Shown here: positions 34,897-45,865 of the stretch, piece after piece
Numbering within the stretch: the stretch's first letter is position 1
Layout of the letters: every line of letters begins with the position of its first letter
Assembly: GCF_016888135.1 (NCBI RefSeq)
Contig: NZ_JACSWB010000147.1
Location: forward strand, 62,001-126,000
DNA length: 64,000 nt
Source: Leptolyngbya sp. CCY15150
GTDB lineage: Bacteria > Cyanobacteriota > Cyanobacteriia > RECH01
Direction: 5' to 3'
Translations under genes and position numbers: made by a program
The notes under the pieces: generated by a model
Told to the model about the DNA's origin: nothing
Database searches by the model: none
Seen by the model: only the letters and a program-made list of their open reading frames with translations

Positions 34897-36333
34897 TTAG
34901 TAATGGGGTTGACGCGGCCCGATGACCGAAAGGTTGAGACCATTGGTGAAAATATCCTCGGCAATCTTGATGCCCAGGGGCATTCCTCCAATATTTTGAG
35001 ATGGATCGGGGTTGCCAGAACTATCGACGGCAAAGGCATCAAACATCCAATGCACACCGATATAAACTCGGCTGAGTCCATTTTCCACAATCATCTGCCA
35101 TAGACCATCTGGAAAGCTGCGTACATGGCGAGGACGCACCGTACCTTGACTATCCGTGGTTATGCCATTGAATTCCTCGGAGACAAAGGTTAATCCATCA
35201 AACAGGTTGTCGCTACCGCAGCCGGTAGTGCCGTAGAATAATCGAGTCATCTGTAGCGCCGCTGCTCCAAAGGTAGCATGACCTGAGGGATAGGCAGGAA
35301 AGTTAGGCGTGAAATTGTTGGTGGGTGTGGGTGCATTGCTGCGAGGCGCGCCTAGGGGTAGCCATGATGGATCAGCATTCTCAGATAACTCACCGCTTTG
35401 CCCGGTGCCACTGGGGCCTAGGGAGCGATCGCCCTCTCGAATGCCCACAATAGGACGCCATAGGTCATGGATATATTTTTGATCCCAAGCTAAGATGCCG
35501 GCATCGCCCATAGCCACGTTCACCAAGGCAAAGAGCCGCGCATTTTGGTCTACAGTATTGCCGCGAGCGATCGCGACCTTACGAACAATCTGGTTATAGA
35601 GCCGAGGTGGAGTACCTAGCTCAGCTGCACCGTCGTAGCCCCAGTAGACACCAATCAGCGTTTCGTTCGGCGTGCGTGGTTCCAGATCATTGGGTAGAGT
35701 GCCCATCAAGTCTGGTGCAATACCCTTGCCCCGTACTTGCCGTAGGGCTTGGCGATAGTCATCACTGTCTAAGGCTGGGGGAGCGTCTAATTCGTGGCGA
35801 TTGGTAACTGCAAAGCATCGGGATTCTGCACCGTAAAAGGGTGCATGGAAACCTTGGGTTAGGTTATCTGGATCCAGGCGATGGGCACCGGGGACTAACG
35901 ATGCGGTGTAATTGGCATCGCTAGAGCTTGGATCCTCCTGCCGTTTTTCTAGAATCTTCTGGGCTACAAGGCGTCCATAATCATAGCCATCTTGCAGATT
36001 GTCGCCGCTTAGATCAGCCTGCGCTAATTTGGTGTCAAAAAAGGCTTTTTGGCTGGGAAATAATAGAGATAAGGTTGTGTGGGCAGCCATGGCAACCGCA
36101 GCATCGGCAGAAGCATTGGCCTGAGGCTTAGGCAAACCAGGTAGGTAGGGAGATAGATTGACGGGAGCATGGGGATTGCCGCGTACGCCAGCATAGGCAT
36201 CATACATGGCTAAGTGGACAATGGCTAAGGCTCGTGAACTGAGCGTGGGGCCGGTTTGCTCCCCTGCTCCATTGGTGTGGCTGACACGATTGGCTTCAAG
36301 GGCAACGTCATTCCAATATAAAATTGGATCCAT
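34897..36333 (-). CDS. vanadium-dependent haloperoxidase family protein
   Basis: A 478-residue protein with the vanadate-binding set of the haloperoxidase/PAP2 superfamily: Lys286 and Arg293 in KYIHDLWRP, Pro-Ser-Gly-His 349-352, Arg422 and His428 in SRVYIGVH. All ligands are present, so vanadate or phosphate binding should be intact. ATG 36333 has AGGAGAA 6 nt upstream; the frame stays open to 36507 but that extension lacks support. No signal peptide is evident. Haloperoxidases oxidise halides with hydrogen peroxide; acid phosphatase activity is the other possibility. It is divergent from the ada-like gene. Confidence 0.85.
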   Translation of the reverse strand: MDPILYWNDVALEANRVSHTNGAGEQTGPTLSSRALAIVHLAMYDAYAGVRGNPHAPVNLSPYLPGLPKPQANASADAAVAMAAHTTLSLLFPSQKAFFDTKLAQADLSGDNLQDGYDYGRLVAQKILEKRQEDPSSSDANYTASLVPGAHRLDPDNLTQGFHAPFYGAESRCFAVTNRHELDAPPALDSDDYRQALRQVRGKGIAPDLMGTLPNDLEPRTPNETLIGVYWGYDGAAELGTPPRLYNQIVRKVAIARGNTVDQNARLFALVNVAMGDAGILAWDQKYIHDLWRPIVGIREGDRSLGPSGTGQSGELSENADPSWLPLGAPRSNAPTPTNNFTPNFPAYPSGHATFGAAALQMTRLFYGTTGCGSDNLFDGLTFVSEEFNGITTDSQGTVRPRHVRSFPDGLWQMIVENGLSRVYIGVHWMFDAFAVDSSGNPDPSQNIGGMPLGIKIAEDIFTNGLNLSVIGPRQPHY

Positions 36334-36697
36334 TGTAGTTCTCCTGGACATTAGTAAAGGGGGCGTTGATTCAAGACCACGAGGGCGGATGAGATGATGC
36401 AAAAACCGGCCCAGGTAAGCGGCGATCGCTGGTAGGTTGAGCATACGTACCTGGGCGATGTGAGGTGCTAACCGTGGACGACGGCGATCCTGTTGAACGA
36501 TATGCAAGCTGCGACCTCCAGCAATCCTTGCCTGGACTCTTCAACGATAGAAACGCGACCTAGGGGTTGGCAGTACCCCCAGGGGTACTCTTTCGCTTCT
36601 GAAGGGACAGCCTGAACCTAGACAGCAAGAAACGGGTGGTGGAATTGTCCAGCCATCAGTACAGTGAGGGTGATAGAGAGCGGCACTAGACGACACT
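36334..36697. promoter_or_regulatory. divergent region between haloperoxidase and ada-like genes, with a palindrome
   Basis: AGTACCCC-CA-GGGGTACT at 36572-36589 is a perfect 8-bp-arm palindrome about 240 bp upstream of the haloperoxidase start and 110 bp upstream of the ada-like gene. It could be an operator for either. AGGAG at 36339-36343 (minus strand) is the haloperoxidase ribosome-binding site. Confidence 0.4.
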
Positions 36698-37555
36698 ATG
36701 ACCTCTTCAGCGGATACCAAGCTCAATCAGCAGGACACTTACGAACGCATCGCGGCGGCGATCGCGTTCCTGCGGCAACACCATGCCGAACAGCCTGACC
36801 TGAAGGCGATCGCTGCTCATCTACATCTCAGTGAATCTCACGTTCAGCGCTTATTCACCCAATGGGTTGGCATCAGTCCTAAACGATTTTTACAATATCT
36901 GACGGTGGGCTATGCTAAGTCAAAGATTCAGACCAGCAAAAATTTGCTAGATCTCACCCTTGATGCTGGCTTATCGAGTCCGGGACGCCTGCATGATTTA
37001 TTTGTCAACCTAGAGGCTATGTCTCCTGGAGAATATAAGTCTGGCGGTCGTGGCTTGCAGATTCGCTATGGTATCCATGGGACACCGTTTGGTTACGCCT
37101 TAATTGCTCTCACCCATCGAGGGATATGTAATCTGATATTCTTAGAAGAGAGTGATGTAGATGCGGCCATATCGTATTTGCAGACAGAATGGCCAGCCGC
37201 AGAACTGATTCTGGATCCGGCAACGACGCAGGAGGTGAGCGATCGCATTTTTACCCCCCTTGCAACTCATCCTACGCCTTTGACGGCCCATGTGAAAGGC
37301 ACCAATTTTCAGATTCAGGTCTGGCGATCGCTCCTGATGATTCCTCCGGGCGGCTTAGCAACCTATGGTGGGATGGCTAAGATCCTGGGTCGTCCTACCG
37401 CAGCAAGGGCAGTGGGGACAGCGATCGGGCGGAATCCTGTGGGCTATCTAATTCCTTGCCATCGAGTGATTCGTGAGTCGGGAGACTTAGGTGGCTATCG
37501 GTGGGGGCTGGAGCGCAAGGCGGCATTGCTGGGCTGGGAAGCTAGCCGCCTGTGA
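36698..37555 (+). CDS. AraC-type HTH / methylated-DNA--cysteine methyltransferase fusion
   Basis: A 285-residue two-domain protein. Residues 15 to about 112 form an AraC-type double helix-turn-helix (DLKAIAAHLHLSESHVQRLF, shown at 20 residues). Residues about 120-285 are the methyltransferase with active-site PCHRV (Cys254) and the DNA-binding helix RAVGTAIGRNP. It lacks the N-terminal zinc/Cys domain through which Ada senses phosphotriester damage. It should repair O6-methylguanine and may also bind DNA. Known bacterial proteins have this same truncated arrangement. No alkB or alkA is adjacent. Confidence 0.9.
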   Translation: MTSSADTKLNQQDTYERIAAAIAFLRQHHAEQPDLKAIAAHLHLSESHVQRLFTQWVGISPKRFLQYLTVGYAKSKIQTSKNLLDLTLDAGLSSPGRLHDLFVNLEAMSPGEYKSGGRGLQIRYGIHGTPFGYALIALTHRGICNLIFLEESDVDAAISYLQTEWPAAELILDPATTQEVSDRIFTPLATHPTPLTAHVKGTNFQIQVWRSLLMIPPGGLATYGGMAKILGRPTAARAVGTAIGRNPVGYLIPCHRVIRESGDLGGYRWGLERKAALLGWEASRL

Positions 37556-39765: not shown

Positions 39766-40428
39766 TTAAATAGGTTTTTGTTGAATCATAGCCCAGTAGG
39801 TATCGGGCCCGGCTGGCACCTGAAAGGAAATATCCCGCAGTTCCAGGATCTGAAAACCCGTGCGCTGAATTAGCGATCGCCACGCACTTTTGCCTAGGGT
39901 ACTGTAGTGATTTTGATTATCCTGATGACGACAGCTTGTATCAGGAGCTGGGACTTCAATATAGAGATAGGCACCGGGTTTCATCACCCGAAAGATTTCG
40001 CTCAGGGTGAAATAAGGAAAAATGCTGTGCTCTAGGCAATGACGGCACCAGATAAAATCAAAGGTGGCATCGGGAAAGTCTAGGAACGATTGATCCATCT
40101 CATAGACCTCGTACCCTTTGTCTTGACAAACGGCGACATCTTTAGGGTTCAGCGTAATGCCGACAGGTTTGAGATTTCGCTGTAAAAATAGCTCTAGCGC
40201 CACCCCTTGACCACAGCCAATATCCAGTACCGCTGCCCCGTCGGGTAAGGTGTATTGGCTGAATACTTCATCAATCATCCGCTGGGTGATCGCCGTATGT
40301 AGCCCACTGGGCGGTTCTGGATAGGTATCCGACTTAATTTTGTCGAAAAACTGCTCTAGCTTTTCAATGTCCGAGGGGTTTAGCTTCATGGTTTCTGAAT
40401 CAGGCAGCACATCTAGGGTAGCTGACAT
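39766..40428 (-). CDS. class I SAM-dependent methyltransferase
   Basis: A 220-residue protein. Seen: SAM motif I VLDIGCGQGVALELF, an acidic residue ending strand 2, and FDFIWCRHCLEHSIFPYFTL of motif post-II, typical of Methyltransf_11/23 proteins. Substrate unknown. It is divergent from the TPP riboswitch transcript with only about 70 bp between, so both promoters share 40429-40499. Confidence 0.85.
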   Translation of the reverse strand: MSATLDVLPDSETMKLNPSDIEKLEQFFDKIKSDTYPEPPSGLHTAITQRMIDEVFSQYTLPDGAAVLDIGCGQGVALELFLQRNLKPVGITLNPKDVAVCQDKGYEVYEMDQSFLDFPDATFDFIWCRHCLEHSIFPYFTLSEIFRVMKPGAYLYIEVPAPDTSCRHQDNQNHYSTLGKSAWRSLIQRTGFQILELRDISFQVPAGPDTYWAMIQQKPI

Positions 40429-40499
40429 AGATGTCGGGGTGGGGTGACAACGTAAATCTGGGGGCGATCGCCCTTCAATGGTACGATACTATCCAAGAA

Positions 40500-40584
40500 G
40501 CTAGGGGTGCCTAGGGCGCAAGTCCGGGCTGAGATTACACCCTCAGAACCTGAGTCTGGGTAATACCAGCGGAGGGAAGTGTGG
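40500..40584 (+). ncRNA. TPP riboswitch (THI element)
   Basis: All conserved blocks are present in order: GGGGTGCC, GGGCTGAGAT, ACCCTCAGAACCTGAG, CTGGGTAATACCAGCG and GAGGGAAG. They fold into the P2/P3 and P4/P5 arms that bind the pyrimidine and diphosphate of thiamine diphosphate. TACGATACT just upstream (about 40481-40489) could be the -10. It governs the plus-strand symporter gene that starts at 40838; the mechanism (termination or start-site masking) is not clear from the leader. Confidence 0.95.
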
Positions 40585-40696
40585 ATTGTGATGGTTTGTA
40601 ACGTCAACCGTGTCGTCGGTGGTTCATGACGTCACCGGTAGACAGCCTAGAACAGCGACCCAGTCTCTAGACAGGGTGGGTGCATTCCACGTTGTA

Positions 40697-40786
40697 GCCC
40701 TCATCCTAAATCCCCAGAGCGGGAGAGGGACTTTGAATCCAGCTCTCCTTTTCTCTTTTTGGGAGAAGGGGTTGGGGGATGAGGGC
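40697..40786. repeat. MITE/REP-like palindromic element in riboswitch leader, copy 3
   Basis: A 90-bp element with perfect 10-bp terminal inverted repeats GCCCTCATCC / GGATGAGGGC and inner CTCCTTTTCTC / GGGAGAAGGGG-type pairing. The left terminus is identical to that of the element at 2895. It lies between the TPP riboswitch and the symporter start, inside an open frame that would otherwise look like an N-terminal extension. Confidence 0.85.
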
Positions 40787-40837
40787 CAACAGGTACCCCT
40801 AGCGTCCTGTTGTGTCGTTTTTGAGAGGGTTCGTGGG

Positions 40838-42325
40838 ATGTCCATTGGGGCGATCGCACTGGTCGTTACGCTGGTGACGACGGCGGTTTTTTCGTTAATT
40901 GGCATTGTTAATGCCAGTCGGCACCGCATTAATTTGGAAGACTATATGGTGAGCCGCAATCGCTTTGGCGGTTGGATGGCCTTTGCGACGGTGGTCGCGT
41001 CCACCATGGGCGCATGGATTTTGTTCAGCCCCCCCGAGGTGGGAGCCACTAGCGGCGTAGCGGGGATTGCCGGCTATTGTATTGGGCAGGCTGTCCCGTC
41101 GATTGGCTTCGTGTGGATTGGGCCGCGCATCCGCCAGCTCATGCCCCAAGGCCATTCGCTGAATGAATATGTGCTCCACCGTTTTGGCAATGCCATGTAT
41201 GCCCTAACGCTGCTGATCATTGCCTTTTATATGCTGGTCTACCTGGTGGCAGAATTAACAGCGATCGCCAAGGCGGTGAATATCCTGGCTGATGTACCGC
41301 TGGGATGGACAGCCTTGGTGGTGATCACCGCCACCTTTGTCTACACCACCTATGGCGGGCTAGGAGCCACCATTTTCACCGATGCTATTCAGTTTGTGAT
41401 CATCACGCCCTTGCTGTTGATTGTGCTGGCGATCGCGGTGGGCAACCTCGGCGGCATCACAGCAGCGTTAGAACCAGTGCGCCTCAATGCTCCAGAACTG
41501 TTGAGCTTCAGCAACGGCCCAGCCATCAAGTTTGGTCTGACTTTGGTGATTGCCATCATCTCTGCGGAAATGTTTAACCAAGGTAACTGGCAACGTATCT
41601 ATGCCTGTCGCACCGACAATACCGTGCGGCGATCGTTTTTGGCATCAGGGCTGGTGATCTTACCCATGCTTTGCATTTCAGGGTTGCTGGGCATCTTGGC
41701 CATGCATTTTGGCTTCAACAGCGACATTGCCTTCTTCTCCCTGCTGCAGGAGTTAGCAATTCCTATCTGGGCGATCGCCCTCGTGCTGATCTTAGCCTTA
41801 GCCTTGGTGATGAGCAGTCTCGATAGCTTACTGAATGGCCTCATCAGCGTATTGATTCTGGATCTACGGCGGCTGTTGCCCCAAAGCAATGAGAATGGCC
41901 TACTGCGCCTCTCGCGGATTTTGACCGTAGCCATTAGTATTCCCGTCATTTTGGTGGCTGCCCAGGGCTATAACGTGCTTTATTTATTCCTGCTCGCCGA
42001 TTTGGTCTGTGCTGGAGCCTTGTTCCCAGTCTTGTATGGTCTCTATAACCGCAGGATTAATGGGATGACTGCCTTGGTGAGCAGCGTGGCGGGAATTGGC
42101 GTGGGTGCTATCTTTTTCCCGAAACCCGACTTTAGCCCTTGGAACAATGTGCCTTTTGCCGGTGACTTGCTTGTCAGTTTCTCAGCACCGATTGTGGTCT
42201 CTGTGGCTGTGGTGTTGATCTGGAATGCGATCGCCCCTCAATCAGACACCGCAGCGGACTTTGAATTTAGCCGCCTGAAAACCGATGTCAAGGCCTACTC
42301 TGAGGTTCTGCCAACCCAGGACTAA
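40838..42325 (+). CDS. sodium:solute symporter under TPP riboswitch control (predicted thiamine or precursor uptake)
   Basis: A 495-residue SSS-family permease with about thirteen membrane segments. Seen: YMVSRNRFGGW at the first loop, YTTYGGLGATIFTDAIQF and SSLDSLLNGLISVLILDL, standard SSS landmarks. ATG 40838 begins the first helix. The frame is open back to 40610, but those 76 residues include the palindromic repeat and are not membrane-protein-like, so I reject them. The TPP riboswitch upstream indicates a role in thiamine supply. SSS transporters under THI elements have been proposed before as thiamine or pyrimidine (HMP) importers; substrate is unproven. Confidence 0.85.
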   Translation: MSIGAIALVVTLVTTAVFSLIGIVNASRHRINLEDYMVSRNRFGGWMAFATVVASTMGAWILFSPPEVGATSGVAGIAGYCIGQAVPSIGFVWIGPRIRQLMPQGHSLNEYVLHRFGNAMYALTLLIIAFYMLVYLVAELTAIAKAVNILADVPLGWTALVVITATFVYTTYGGLGATIFTDAIQFVIITPLLLIVLAIAVGNLGGITAALEPVRLNAPELLSFSNGPAIKFGLTLVIAIISAEMFNQGNWQRIYACRTDNTVRRSFLASGLVILPMLCISGLLGILAMHFGFNSDIAFFSLLQELAIPIWAIALVLILALALVMSSLDSLLNGLISVLILDLRRLLPQSNENGLLRLSRILTVAISIPVILVAAQGYNVLYLFLLADLVCAGALFPVLYGLYNRRINGMTALVSSVAGIGVGAIFFPKPDFSPWNNVPFAGDLLVSFSAPIVVSVAVVLIWNAIAPQSDTAADFEFSRLKTDVKAYSEVLPTQD

Positions 42326-42455: not shown

Positions 42456-42833
42456 ATGAGTGCATCGTTAAAGCCAATTGAATGGGTTGGACGTTCTCTT
42501 GAGGATTTGAAAAGATTCCCAGAGGATGTTCGGCAAACTGTTGGGTACGCCTTGTATTTAGCCCAAAGTGGTGAAAAGTATCCCTCAGCCAAGCCACTTA
42601 AAGGATTTAAGGGGGCTGGAGTATTGGAGGTTGTAGAAGATTTTGACGGAGATACTTATCGAGCTGTCTACACGGTGAAACTTGCTGGTGTGATCTACGT
42701 CCTACACGCGTTTCAGAAAAAATCAAAGCAAGGCATTGCTACTCCTAAACAGGATATTGAGTTGATCGAAGCACGGCTGAAACGAGCCAGAGAACATTAC
42801 TCGCAGAATTATAATCAACAGCAAGGAGAGTAA
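42456..42833 (+). CDS. HigB/Gp49-type toxin (RelE superfamily)
   Basis: A 125-residue basic protein with the phage-Gp49/HigB layout: PIEWVGRSLEDLKRFPEDVR at the N-terminus, KPLKGFKGAGVLEVVEDFDGDTYRAVY in the middle and VLHAFQKKSKQGIATP near the end. These are ribosome-dependent RNases. The toxin gene comes first, with the helix-turn-helix antitoxin 3 bp downstream, the order typical of HigBA rather than RelBE. AT-rich compared with flanking core genes. Confidence 0.87.
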   Translation: MSASLKPIEWVGRSLEDLKRFPEDVRQTVGYALYLAQSGEKYPSAKPLKGFKGAGVLEVVEDFDGDTYRAVYTVKLAGVIYVLHAFQKKSKQGIATPKQDIELIEARLKRAREHYSQNYNQQQGE

Positions 42834-42836
42834 GAT

Positions 42837-43166
42837 ATGACTCAAGAAATTGGAGTACAAGCCAGCAGTGGTAACGTGTTTGCAGATTTGAGTTTGGAGA
42901 ACGCTGATGAATTGCTGGTCAAAGCAGAACTTGCTCGTAGGATCAGCAGCATTATTACGAAGCAGCAGATGACTCAAGCTGAGGCAGCGGAGATGTTAGG
43001 AATTGACCAACCTAAAATCTCAGCATTAGTCAACGGAAAGTTAGCGGGCTTTTCGACTGCACGATTGTTTCGCTTCCTAAATGCATTGGGGCAAGATGTG
43101 GAAATTGTAGTGAAACCTAAGTCTCATGCCCAAGCTCAAACCCGCGTTGTTGTTTCGTGCTTTTGA
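42837..43166 (+). CDS. HigA-like XRE-family antitoxin
   Basis: A 109-residue protein with a Cro/CI helix-turn-helix (MTQAEAAEMLGIDQPKISAL, residues about 45-64) followed by RLFRFLNALGQDVEIVVKP, the usual tail of antitoxins paired with Gp49-type toxins. Starts 3 bp after the toxin stop. It should neutralise the toxin and repress the promoter at 42420-42449. Confidence 0.88.
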   Translation: MTQEIGVQASSGNVFADLSLENADELLVKAELARRISSIITKQQMTQAEAAEMLGIDQPKISALVNGKLAGFSTARLFRFLNALGQDVEIVVKPKSHAQAQTRVVVSCF

Positions 43167-43445: not shown

Positions 43446-45590
43446 CTAATCAGATTCAGGAAAGTAGTCTTCTTTAGCTTTATCTGTAAGTTTGTAAACT
43501 CGCTGACCAGTTTCGCTCTCTCTTGAAATTAAGCCCCTTACTTCATCTAATTTCTTGGCTCTCCAGCCAACTAATTGATGAGAACAATCAAGCTCCTCAG
43601 CTATTTCTTTCGGCTTGGGTGAGTTCTCTGATTTGTGAATTTCGTAGAGAATTCCAAGTTCCACATCAGGTAAAAGTTTAGCATTATCTACCCTCGAAAG
43701 CTCTGCTTCTATAGTTTCAGAGTTAGCAACAACTCTTACTGGATTTTGGCAATCTGGGCACTTCATATTAGTAAATTCAAGAAACTGAAGCTGATCAAAT
43801 GGAAAGTTGCGGTTGCATTCAGGATTAATACAAATAATCCGTTTTGATGTTCTTAAAAAACTTTCAATTATGTTATTAAAATCGAATGGTCTAGAAATTA
43901 AATATTTCCTATGTTCAGCTCCTTTAGGATAACCCCACCTCAATCTGTACTTAACGCACAAGCCATAATTTAAGCAGTAGACAGATTGCTTTCCACGATC
44001 TCTACCGCTCATCTCATTATACTTGCTTACGAAAAAGTTTAACTCTAATGTTTTGAGAAATTGTTCGTGTATTGGATTAAAAATAAAATGACTTGTGTAT
44101 GGATTAGTTCTGACTACTTCATAAATAACTCCTGATAGTTCATTGGTTCTTATCTTGCTCTGAATGGTTTTTAATTCTTCTACAAAGATTAGTAACAACT
44201 CTCTCAGTTGAAGTATAGATATTTTCTCCTCAAATGACTTAAGAGAATAAGTCGTATTATGAAAAAATGGTTCGATTGTTAGCTCATAATATTTTTCGGC
44301 AGCATCTTCTAAAGATGCCTTGGTGATAGGATTACCATAAGCAACTTTACTCTCATAGCAGTAGTAAAGAATGTAGCCAATAATTCTTGGTACATTCATC
44401 GAAACCTGAAATATACAACCATAATATTCTTCAATGCCTTCCTTCCTAGTATCAAAAAAATATTCGACAGGTTGATTGGTAAAATGCTCTACCCGCCTCT
44501 CAATGAGCCTTCGAGTAAAATCAATAGACTTCTCTTCCATAACACTCTTGTTGACTCTAGTAGAGTAAAGATCATAGAAATCAAGGCTTATTTTATCAAT
44601 TTTTCCTTGGTCAATTTTTCCAAAGTAAACCCTGTTGGGATACGCTGCTACTTTGAACTTGATAAACTCCTCTGACCAATTGTTCAGAGGTGCCAAAATA
44701 ACGTCTACAAAAACTCGCATGGAGTGGTCAGGAATCTCTGAGAAATCGTCAAGGAGAATTACAAGGCTCCGAATTTCTAGCAAAGAAAGTATATCTTTAA
44801 GTTGATTTATAAAATTTTTAATTTGAAAAACCTTTAGAAAGACATCGGAGAATTGCTCTTCTAACTCAGACAAATTCTTCCTGGAATCTTTAGTAGTTCG
44901 ACTAATCGAAGAAGAAGCATCAATTCCCAAGTCTGTTGGACTTGCCGTTCCCATAAGCCTGCTGTCTTTGCTTGATGCTATTTCATTTGCTTTCTCAGCA
45001 GATAACTTTCTACTAATCGATATTTGTTGTAGAGATGGAACTTCAATCAATTTAAGATGATCATTGTTGTCAATAATCTCGTTCAATTTTTTTAGTTTCT
45101 CTGTGACATTTCGCACTCCTCCAATTCCTAAGGCTTGCTTTATTTTTTCCAAAAAGCTATCTGATTTCTTTTTGATTTCTTCCAGCAAAGAACGCAAAAT
45201 GCTTTGAATAAAATTTCTTTCAAGAATATACTTGCTTAATGCATCATCTGATATAGTTCCATCTAAATGCTCTATATTAATAAAGTCAGTCTGAGAAGAC
45301 TCAAAAACAGTTTTTGCGTCAATGTAGCAGGATAGAATGTTGCTTTTCTTCCTGTACTCTCTTTGTAGCTTCAGAAAAATTGTAGATTTACCAGTTCCTT
45401 TTCTTCCAATTAGAAAGGTTGTATTGTCTGTTAAACACGCTTTCAAAATTTGCTCATTTGGCAGTAAGTCAGTATAAAGAGTCTCAACAAGATCTTTTCC
45501 TGCTTCGTCAGTTATTTCAGCTCTTCTATACTTCTTTAGCGAATTTACTGCCGCAAAAAAATTGTCTTTATCAGTTTTAGAGTAAGACAT
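43446..45590 (-). CDS. P-loop ATPase with zinc ribbon and winged-helix C-terminus, function unknown
   Basis: A 714-residue protein (ATG 45590, AAGGA just upstream; a TTG at 45608 would add 6). Seen: Walker A GRKGTGKST (62-70), a helical insert rich in Lys/Ser, Walker B LVILLDDFSEI (276-286), a zinc ribbon Cys587-x4-Cys592...Cys611-x2-Cys614, and a C-terminal winged helix (about 640-710; PKPKEIAEELDCSHQLVGWR). It resembles STAND/ORC-like ATPases and possibly the Sll1717 group; I cannot prove the family. The gene is much more AT-rich than its neighbours and has no HIP1 site. A role in DNA-linked sensing or defence is inference. Confidence 0.75.
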   Translation of the reverse strand: MSYSKTDKDNFFAAVNSLKKYRRAEITDEAGKDLVETLYTDLLPNEQILKACLTDNTTFLIGRKGTGKSTIFLKLQREYRKKSNILSCYIDAKTVFESSQTDFINIEHLDGTISDDALSKYILERNFIQSILRSLLEEIKKKSDSFLEKIKQALGIGGVRNVTEKLKKLNEIIDNNDHLKLIEVPSLQQISISRKLSAEKANEIASSKDSRLMGTASPTDLGIDASSSISRTTKDSRKNLSELEEQFSDVFLKVFQIKNFINQLKDILSLLEIRSLVILLDDFSEIPDHSMRVFVDVILAPLNNWSEEFIKFKVAAYPNRVYFGKIDQGKIDKISLDFYDLYSTRVNKSVMEEKSIDFTRRLIERRVEHFTNQPVEYFFDTRKEGIEEYYGCIFQVSMNVPRIIGYILYYCYESKVAYGNPITKASLEDAAEKYYELTIEPFFHNTTYSLKSFEEKISILQLRELLLIFVEELKTIQSKIRTNELSGVIYEVVRTNPYTSHFIFNPIHEQFLKTLELNFFVSKYNEMSGRDRGKQSVYCLNYGLCVKYRLRWGYPKGAEHRKYLISRPFDFNNIIESFLRTSKRIICINPECNRNFPFDQLQFLEFTNMKCPDCQNPVRVVANSETIEAELSRVDNAKLLPDVELGILYEIHKSENSPKPKEIAEELDCSHQLVGWRAKKLDEVRGLISRESETGQRVYKLTDKAKEDYFPESD

Positions 45591-45865
45591 GCTTCCTTGT
45601 TTGCCCAAAGTCGTTGATAGCAGCTATAGCATTTACTGTAAAGCATCATCTATAGGTTCCAAGCCGCTCATGTGCCTACTACTATGTGAATAGGCATAGC
45701 ATTTGCCGTCTAATGGCTCTCTGAGGGTAGATAGACTACGAATACCCTGCATAATAGCCCTTTGTAGGGTAGATAGACAGCAAAGATCCGTAAATCTTCC
45801 ATTTTGCTGTTAAAGGTACATATGTATTGTTAACACTGTATTGGATACTTGTCTGTGGAGTTGTC

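Follow-up and report, generated by a model that had tools for sequence, protein, structure and literature searches.

Cyanobacteria are usually thought to make all of their own vitamin B1 (thiamine), and they count as suppliers of B1 in aquatic food webs. Why, then, does Leptolyngbya sp. CCY15150 carry a TPP riboswitch in front of a transporter gene, which solute would this transporter bring in, and how is it connected with the organism's own thiamine pathway? We addressed these questions by computational analysis of a stretch of 64,000 nucleotides (hereafter the window), of the host genome, and of related loci in other genomes.

According to excerpts of Sun et al. (2013; PMC3766115), the TPP riboswitch regulates only thiC in all cyanobacteria studied (14 surveyed). 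Tee et al. (2021; PMC8546630), as excerpted, note that neither a thiamine transporter system nor thiamine auxotrophy had so far been reported for cyanobacteria, and they predict auxotrophy in toxic Microcoleus via loss of thiD, tenA, and thiK. Uptake of B1 by cyanobacteria has already been suggested by another route, since excerpts of a Baltic study record expression of the B1 transporter gene omr1 in Nostocales (PMC12442306). ThiV is known from SAR11 and algae, and its occurrence in cyanobacteria seems to be unreported; in the literature searched, with most subscription journals outside its scope, we found no description of ThiV or of a TPP-controlled symporter in cyanobacteria, and none of predicted cyanobacterial pyrimidine auxotrophs.

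The TPP aptamer and the symporter gene

A cmscan search of the whole window gave a single Rfam match, the TPP aptamer of Table 1, which spans the full length of the model and scores above the gathering threshold of 54.3 bits. The original prediction, made from the letters alone, had described a THI element preceding an SSS permease, and this was borne out by the RF00059 score (61.2 bits) together with a PF00474 match of the gene product at 83.9 bits (cut-off 22.8). The start that it gave, 40500, already belongs to the 5' strand of the aptamer, whereas the match itself begins at 40493. The symporter frame is intact from its ATG at 40838 to the stop at 42325, and 243 nt separate the aptamer from this start. 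A longer frame of 571 aa from a GTG at 40610 was rejected because it is not conserved, alignments of the orthologues beginning at residue 1 of the 495-aa frame. Comparison with the 96% identical orthologue of Leptolyngbya sp. DLM2.Bin15 (L003) gave a dN/dS of 0.042 over 494 codons, and the symporter is, by this measure, under purifying selection.

The gene upstream of the locus, a methyltransferase gene (39766-40428), runs in the opposite orientation, and the next downstream gene is part of an apparent toxin-antitoxin pair; the symporter is therefore probably the sole gene of its transcript in the window. The pair consists of Gp49-like (PF05973) and HTH_37 genes in tandem at 42456-43166 (+), right after the symporter, an arrangement that we take to resemble a HigBA-type toxin-antitoxin pair. 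Terminator scoring of the sequence returned no intrinsic-terminator-like site between 40594 and 40838, so that the sequence gives no support for a transcript ending before the symporter, and a terminator of the ordinary intrinsic kind was rejected for this interval. Terminator-like sites were scored at 40862-40885, within the symporter coding sequence.

Table 1. Features of the riboswitch-symporter locus (positions in the window)
Feature	Position	Strand	Basis
TPP riboswitch aptamer (THI element, RF00059)	40493..40594	+	61.2 bits, E 1.4e-9, model 1-105
5' strand of aptamer P1/P2 (GCTAGGGGTGCCT)	40500..40512	+	predicted pairing with 40791-40803 when TPP is absent
Interspersed palindromic repeat in leader	40690..40792	.	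41 matches in host genome, query included
Hairpin CAACAGG/CCTGTTG	40787..40812	+	inverted repeat I5; forms in fold of 40785-40860
Anti-aptamer segment AGGTACCCCTAGC, just upstream of Shine-Dalgarno	40791..40803	+	minimum-energy fold
Probable Shine-Dalgarno sequence GAGAGGG	40823..40829	+	sequence; 8 nt upstream of ATG
SSS-family sodium:solute symporter, probably ThiV/SSSP-type, 495 aa	40838..42325	+	PF00474, clade 100/99, AlphaFold model

Conservation of the riboswitch-symporter pair in cyanobacteria

A search of genome contigs yielded 34 cyanobacterial relatives, 60-96% identical, and a TPP aptamer reached the Rfam gathering score upstream of the orthologue in 33 of them. The one miss (L031) was recovered by model R1. 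Of the 24 aptamers that went into R1, 20 belong to this cyanobacterial symporter family, so that its hits are partly by construction. The class was sampled with 242 cyanobacterial genomes drawn from a larger group. Matches at an E value of 1e-20 were obtained in 59 of these genomes; five held only paralogues of 23-27% identity and were dropped, which left 54 genomes with an orthologue at least 48% identical. R1 placed an aptamer upstream in 53 of the 54, matches that are again partly by construction because some of the 242 genomes are the same assemblies as the named loci (e.g., G144 and L014), and this proportion rules out a chance pairing of aptamer and symporter. The exception without a TPP aptamer is the G201 orthologue, at 48% identity. 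At seven paralogue loci of other cyanobacteria, where about 500 nt or less of upstream sequence is present, R1 found no aptamer (0/7). In G033 (L143), the symporter orthologue is broken up into two frames that overlap, next to an intact thiC, and is an apparent pseudogene.

Thiamine biosynthesis genes and linkage to thiC

The host genome (G000; 5.75 Mb, 99.96% complete) carries thiC, thiG, thiE, thiD, and two tenA genes, one of which adjoins thiD on contig C244. The original prediction had proposed a search for thiC and thiE, and both were found. Its suggestion that thiamine or a precursor is taken up by an organism that also makes thiamine is supported by the TPP element ahead of the SSS gene and by the presence of thiC, thiG, thiE, thiD, and tenA, with uptake itself being predicted. 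From this gene set, the window's organism is predicted to be a prototroph with salvage. The genome has two TPP aptamers, the window's and one on contig C218 ahead of thiC. The TPP riboswitch of cyanobacterial thiC shares its aptamer class and its genomes with that of the symporter; however, the aptamer match of the host thiC ends 6 nt before the start codon (L001), whereas that of the symporter lies 243 nt away from its gene, and an anti-aptamer segment is found close to the Shine-Dalgarno sequence there. In one genome of the sample (G142), thiC is present, yet no TPP aptamer was found.

The symporter had also been set apart from thiamine synthesis genes, a separation that did not hold among the relatives, in most of which it sits a short way 5' of thiC and often shares a switch with it. 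In 31 of the 46 genomes with both genes, thiC follows the symporter on the same strand at a distance of at most 6 kb, and in 22 of these the distance is no more than 600 nt; thiC is on another contig in 12, the window's genome included, and far away in 3. A second TPP aptamer precedes thiC in two of the 22 close loci, and none was found in the other 20, which suggests that riboswitch, symporter, and thiC form one unit in these 20 loci.

Loss of thiC in carriers of the symporter

By PF01964, thiC was absent from 12 of the 242 genomes, and tblastn with ThiC agreed for all 12. Together with G124, in which tblastn detected only a 39-aa thiC relic with a stop, the thiC-less genomes number 13. The relic in this Pegethrix genome lies at about 1584-1700 of L119 and contains an internal stop, and both the riboswitch and the symporter are kept. 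The symporter was present in 8 of the 13 thiC-less genomes against 46 of the 229 others (Fisher p 0.002), and in 6/9 against 42/215 (p 0.0037) among genomes with at least 90% completeness and at most 5% contamination, shared ancestry being ignored in both comparisons. Within the best-sampled family (f24), the counts were 6/6 and 14/21, a difference that was not significant (p 0.15).

The eight thiC-less carriers, which include Elainella saxicola E1 (G144, L014) and Pegethrix bostrychoides GSE-TBD4-15B (G124, L015), have lost thiC in seven cases and retain the relic in the eighth. In each of the eight, thiG, thiE, and a full ThiD match are still present, and seven of them have tenA; thiG was found in 35/35 and thiE in 17/17 cases. 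Because a sister of the thiC-less genome keeps thiC in each of the genera g61, g66, and g85, the distribution points to separate losses of thiC in these three genera. An SSS orthologue is missing from five thiC-less genomes (G012, G080, G174, G197, and G234), all of which retain thiE and thiG, so loss of thiC is possible without the symporter. One of these, G197 (99% complete), is without thiC, TPP aptamer, symporter, and tenA and has thiG, thiE, and thiD.

Relationship of the symporter to ThiV

In tblastn searches against plasmids, haloarchaeal relatives (32-44% identity) and a Halomonas relative (36%) were found, followed by a drop to about 27% or less. At five of the six haloarchaeal loci examined (six of the eight hits H1-H8), tenA lies upstream on the same strand, where it stands alone (Haloferax) or precedes a second TenA-family gene; the sixth locus has no tenA. 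The Halomonas gene has a TPP aptamer upstream, and none was found at the haloarchaeal loci, as in the excerpts of McRose et al. (2014; PMC4260697), where a Halobacteria clade belongs to SSSP and its members lack the riboswitch. The cyanobacterial, haloarchaeal, and Halomonas rows join at 100/99 in a 38-row tree that has several long branches and no SAR11 or algal rows, and PutP, PanF, an SGLT-like protein, two alphaproteobacterial symporters, and cyanobacterial paralogues fall outside that clade.

Its nearest relatives outside the cyanobacteria being tenA-linked genes of haloarchaea and a Halomonas gene under TPP control, the symporter is probably, as judged from sequence and gene context, a ThiV/SSSP-type importer. 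Members of this class in SAR11, marine algae, Methylobacillus, and Halobacteria likewise belong to the SSS family, have thiamine-gene neighbors and, in bacteria, a TPP riboswitch; the corresponding figures here are an aptamer at 53/54 loci and thiC within 6 kb in 31/46 genomes. The likeness to ThiV is drawn from the haloarchaeal and Halomonas sequences, SAR11 and algal ThiV being compared by description only. While SAR11 is a thiC-less auxotroph, the cyanobacterial hosts mostly keep thiC, and their symporter is tied to it.

PutP and PanF have the SSS superfamily in common with the symporter, but both identities were rejected, since its scores of 64.6 and 46.5 bits miss the respective NCBIfam equivalogue cut-offs of 515.5 and 328.05 bits and both proteins stand outside its clade. 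The AlphaFold model of the symporter (pLDDT 84) matched CHT1, DUR3, SiaT, and NIS at Z 32-34 in VIA-align. It has the same fold as CHT1 (Z 34.2, rmsd 3.3, 447 aligned) and SiaT (Z 32.8, rmsd 3.1, 448 aligned), and its identity to SSS proteins of known structure (SiaT, vSGLT, and CHT1) is about 15-20%. In TM8 it carries Ser-Ser, in contrast to Ser-Thr in PutP, and this pair presumably represents the sodium-site residues. Residues R40, G58, Y131, A138, T141, and D388 each occur in 26/26 clade rows and are rare outside, and E139 is uniform in 25/26 and also rare outside. The ThiV signature given in excerpts of PMC11452348 comprises Tyr78, Asp139, and Phe254 in SiaT numbering; its candidate equivalents are Y80 (TM2), E139 (TM3), and F246 followed by N,Q (TM6). 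The TM3 candidate is Glu rather than Asp, in the same 25 rows, and the F246 position is not Phe in haloarchaea.

Predicted substrate

We consider it likely that the locus is a cyanobacterial thiV, namely, a TPP-riboswitch-controlled sodium symporter that imports HMP or amino-HMP and thereby tops up a complete de novo pathway. Both sodium coupling and substrate are what we infer from family, gene context, and pathway logic. The eight carriers that lost thiC but kept thiD, thiE, and thiG argue for HMP or amino-HMP rather than whole thiamine, and this pyrimidine moiety is most likely the substrate. ThiD would phosphorylate the imported HMP, ThiE would couple it to the thiazole, and TenA would convert amino-HMP to HMP. 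The original prediction, which named thiamine or HMP, stands with regard to a thiamine-related importer, uptake itself being predicted, and is narrowed by the thiC-only loss in the eight carriers, which favors the pyrimidine precursor over whole thiamine.

An import of whole thiamine, or of thiamine and HMP about equally, by a gene that the riboswitch shuts when TPP is ample would be compatible with TPP control, which fits any thiamine-related solute, and SSSP has been proposed for thiamine or HMP in the excerpts of PMC4260697. We nevertheless regard it as unlikely. Whole-thiamine import would make thiD, thiE, and thiG dispensable, yet the thiC-less genomes keep all three, and the haloarchaeal relatives adjoin tenA. 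Moreover, excerpts of PMC11452348 present ThiV as the likely HMP transporter of SAR11 and describe uptake, likely through ThiV, as HMP-specific in a strain unable to use thiamine.

Predicted control by the leader

In the minimum-energy fold of the window's leader, a 13-bp helix joins 40500-40512 of the aptamer to 40791-40803. Across the family, GCTAGGGG is present in 52/53 aptamers, and CCYCTAGC or CCCTAGC occurs no more than 110 nt from the start in 30 of the 53 leaders, against 0.7 expected from dinucleotide shuffles, with start codons uncertain where the match does not begin at residue 1 (e.g., L139, L135-L137, L141, and L142) and for L059. The anti-aptamer segment is able to pair with GAGGTG in many relatives. 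In 15 of 28 leaders (the 30 motif leaders except one without a recognisable Shine-Dalgarno sequence and one duplicate), the Shine-Dalgarno sequence became more accessible once the motif was blocked, to a level beyond the 95th percentile of the control blocks, a modeling result that supports translational control in the symporter family. At low TPP, pairing of the aptamer's 5' strand with CCCCTAGC beside the Shine-Dalgarno sequence would leave the ribosome site open, and the importer would be made. When TPP is plentiful, the aptamer would close and the anti-aptamer segment would be freed; in relatives with CACCTC/GAGGTG, the freed segment could then cover the Shine-Dalgarno sequence and shut off translation.

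The window's leader is not among the 15 responsive ones, and blocking of the motif makes little difference to its Shine-Dalgarno sequence, which is largely open in both cases (0.79 and 0.76). Folding of this leader gave no clear on/off switch over 40822-40831, where the unpaired values ranged from 0.18 to 0.78 with the aptamer locked and from 0.08 to 0.93 with the aptamer free. The description of the element as textbook suits the aptamer but not the expression platform, where a repeat is present and folding gives no clear sign that the Shine-Dalgarno sequence is sequestered. The repeat is present in L042 and absent from L003 and L041.

It is conceivable that this inserted repeat, which has 41 matches in the genome and sits between aptamer and gene, has altered the leader so that it no longer switches and the symporter is constitutive or silent; the Shine-Dalgarno sequence, open in both modeled states, would agree with this. 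However, the 13-bp anti-aptamer helix survives the insertion as the minimum-energy pairing, the insert folds on itself, an insert-free sister has the same downstream segment, and the protein is under purifying selection, all of which make a defunct switch rather improbable. The hairpin at 40787-40812, an alternative to the anti-aptamer helix, is a possible weak off-state element in the modeled folds; a five-T run lies a few bases 3' of this hairpin, which was not scored as a terminator.

Although SSS members carry many solutes and the haloarchaeal relatives are annotated 'sodium:proline symporter', transport of a non-thiamine solute (e.g., an amino acid or a carboxylate), with TPP control as a wider metabolic link, is most improbable in view of the widely missed PutP (64.6/515.5 bits) and PanF (46.5/328.05 bits) cut-offs, the position of both proteins outside the clade, and the thiC and tenA neighbors.

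Implications of a proposed cyanobacterial HMP importer

If the symporter is an HMP importer, its distribution bears on the view of cyanobacteria as B1 producers. We are somewhat inclined to think that not all cyanobacteria are B1 prototrophs, and that in several filamentous genera a riboswitch-controlled HMP importer, in one unit with thiC, let thiC be lost repeatedly. This would have given rise to pyrimidine auxotrophs (e.g., Elainella saxicola E1) that depend on their neighbors, whereas their sisters, including the window's organism, would switch between making and importing HMP. As the importer occurs in about one-fifth of the sampled class (54/242) and thiC is gone in some carriers, the question of who supplies and who consumes B1 precursors becomes testable in culturable strains. 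Bacimethrin, an HMP mimic that excerpts of PMC12345177 describe as released by Microcystis, might also enter cells through this importer.

Other genes in the window

Three further genes surround the locus. The product of 34897-36507 (-) has a vanadium chloroperoxidase N-terminal domain and a sub-threshold PAP2 match, and that of 36698-37555 (+) is Ada-like, with an AraC-type HTH fused to an O6-methylguanine-DNA methyltransferase domain. Beyond the toxin-antitoxin pair, 43446-45608 (-) encodes a large protein with a weak, below-cut-off match to the Sll1717 P-loop ATPase family.
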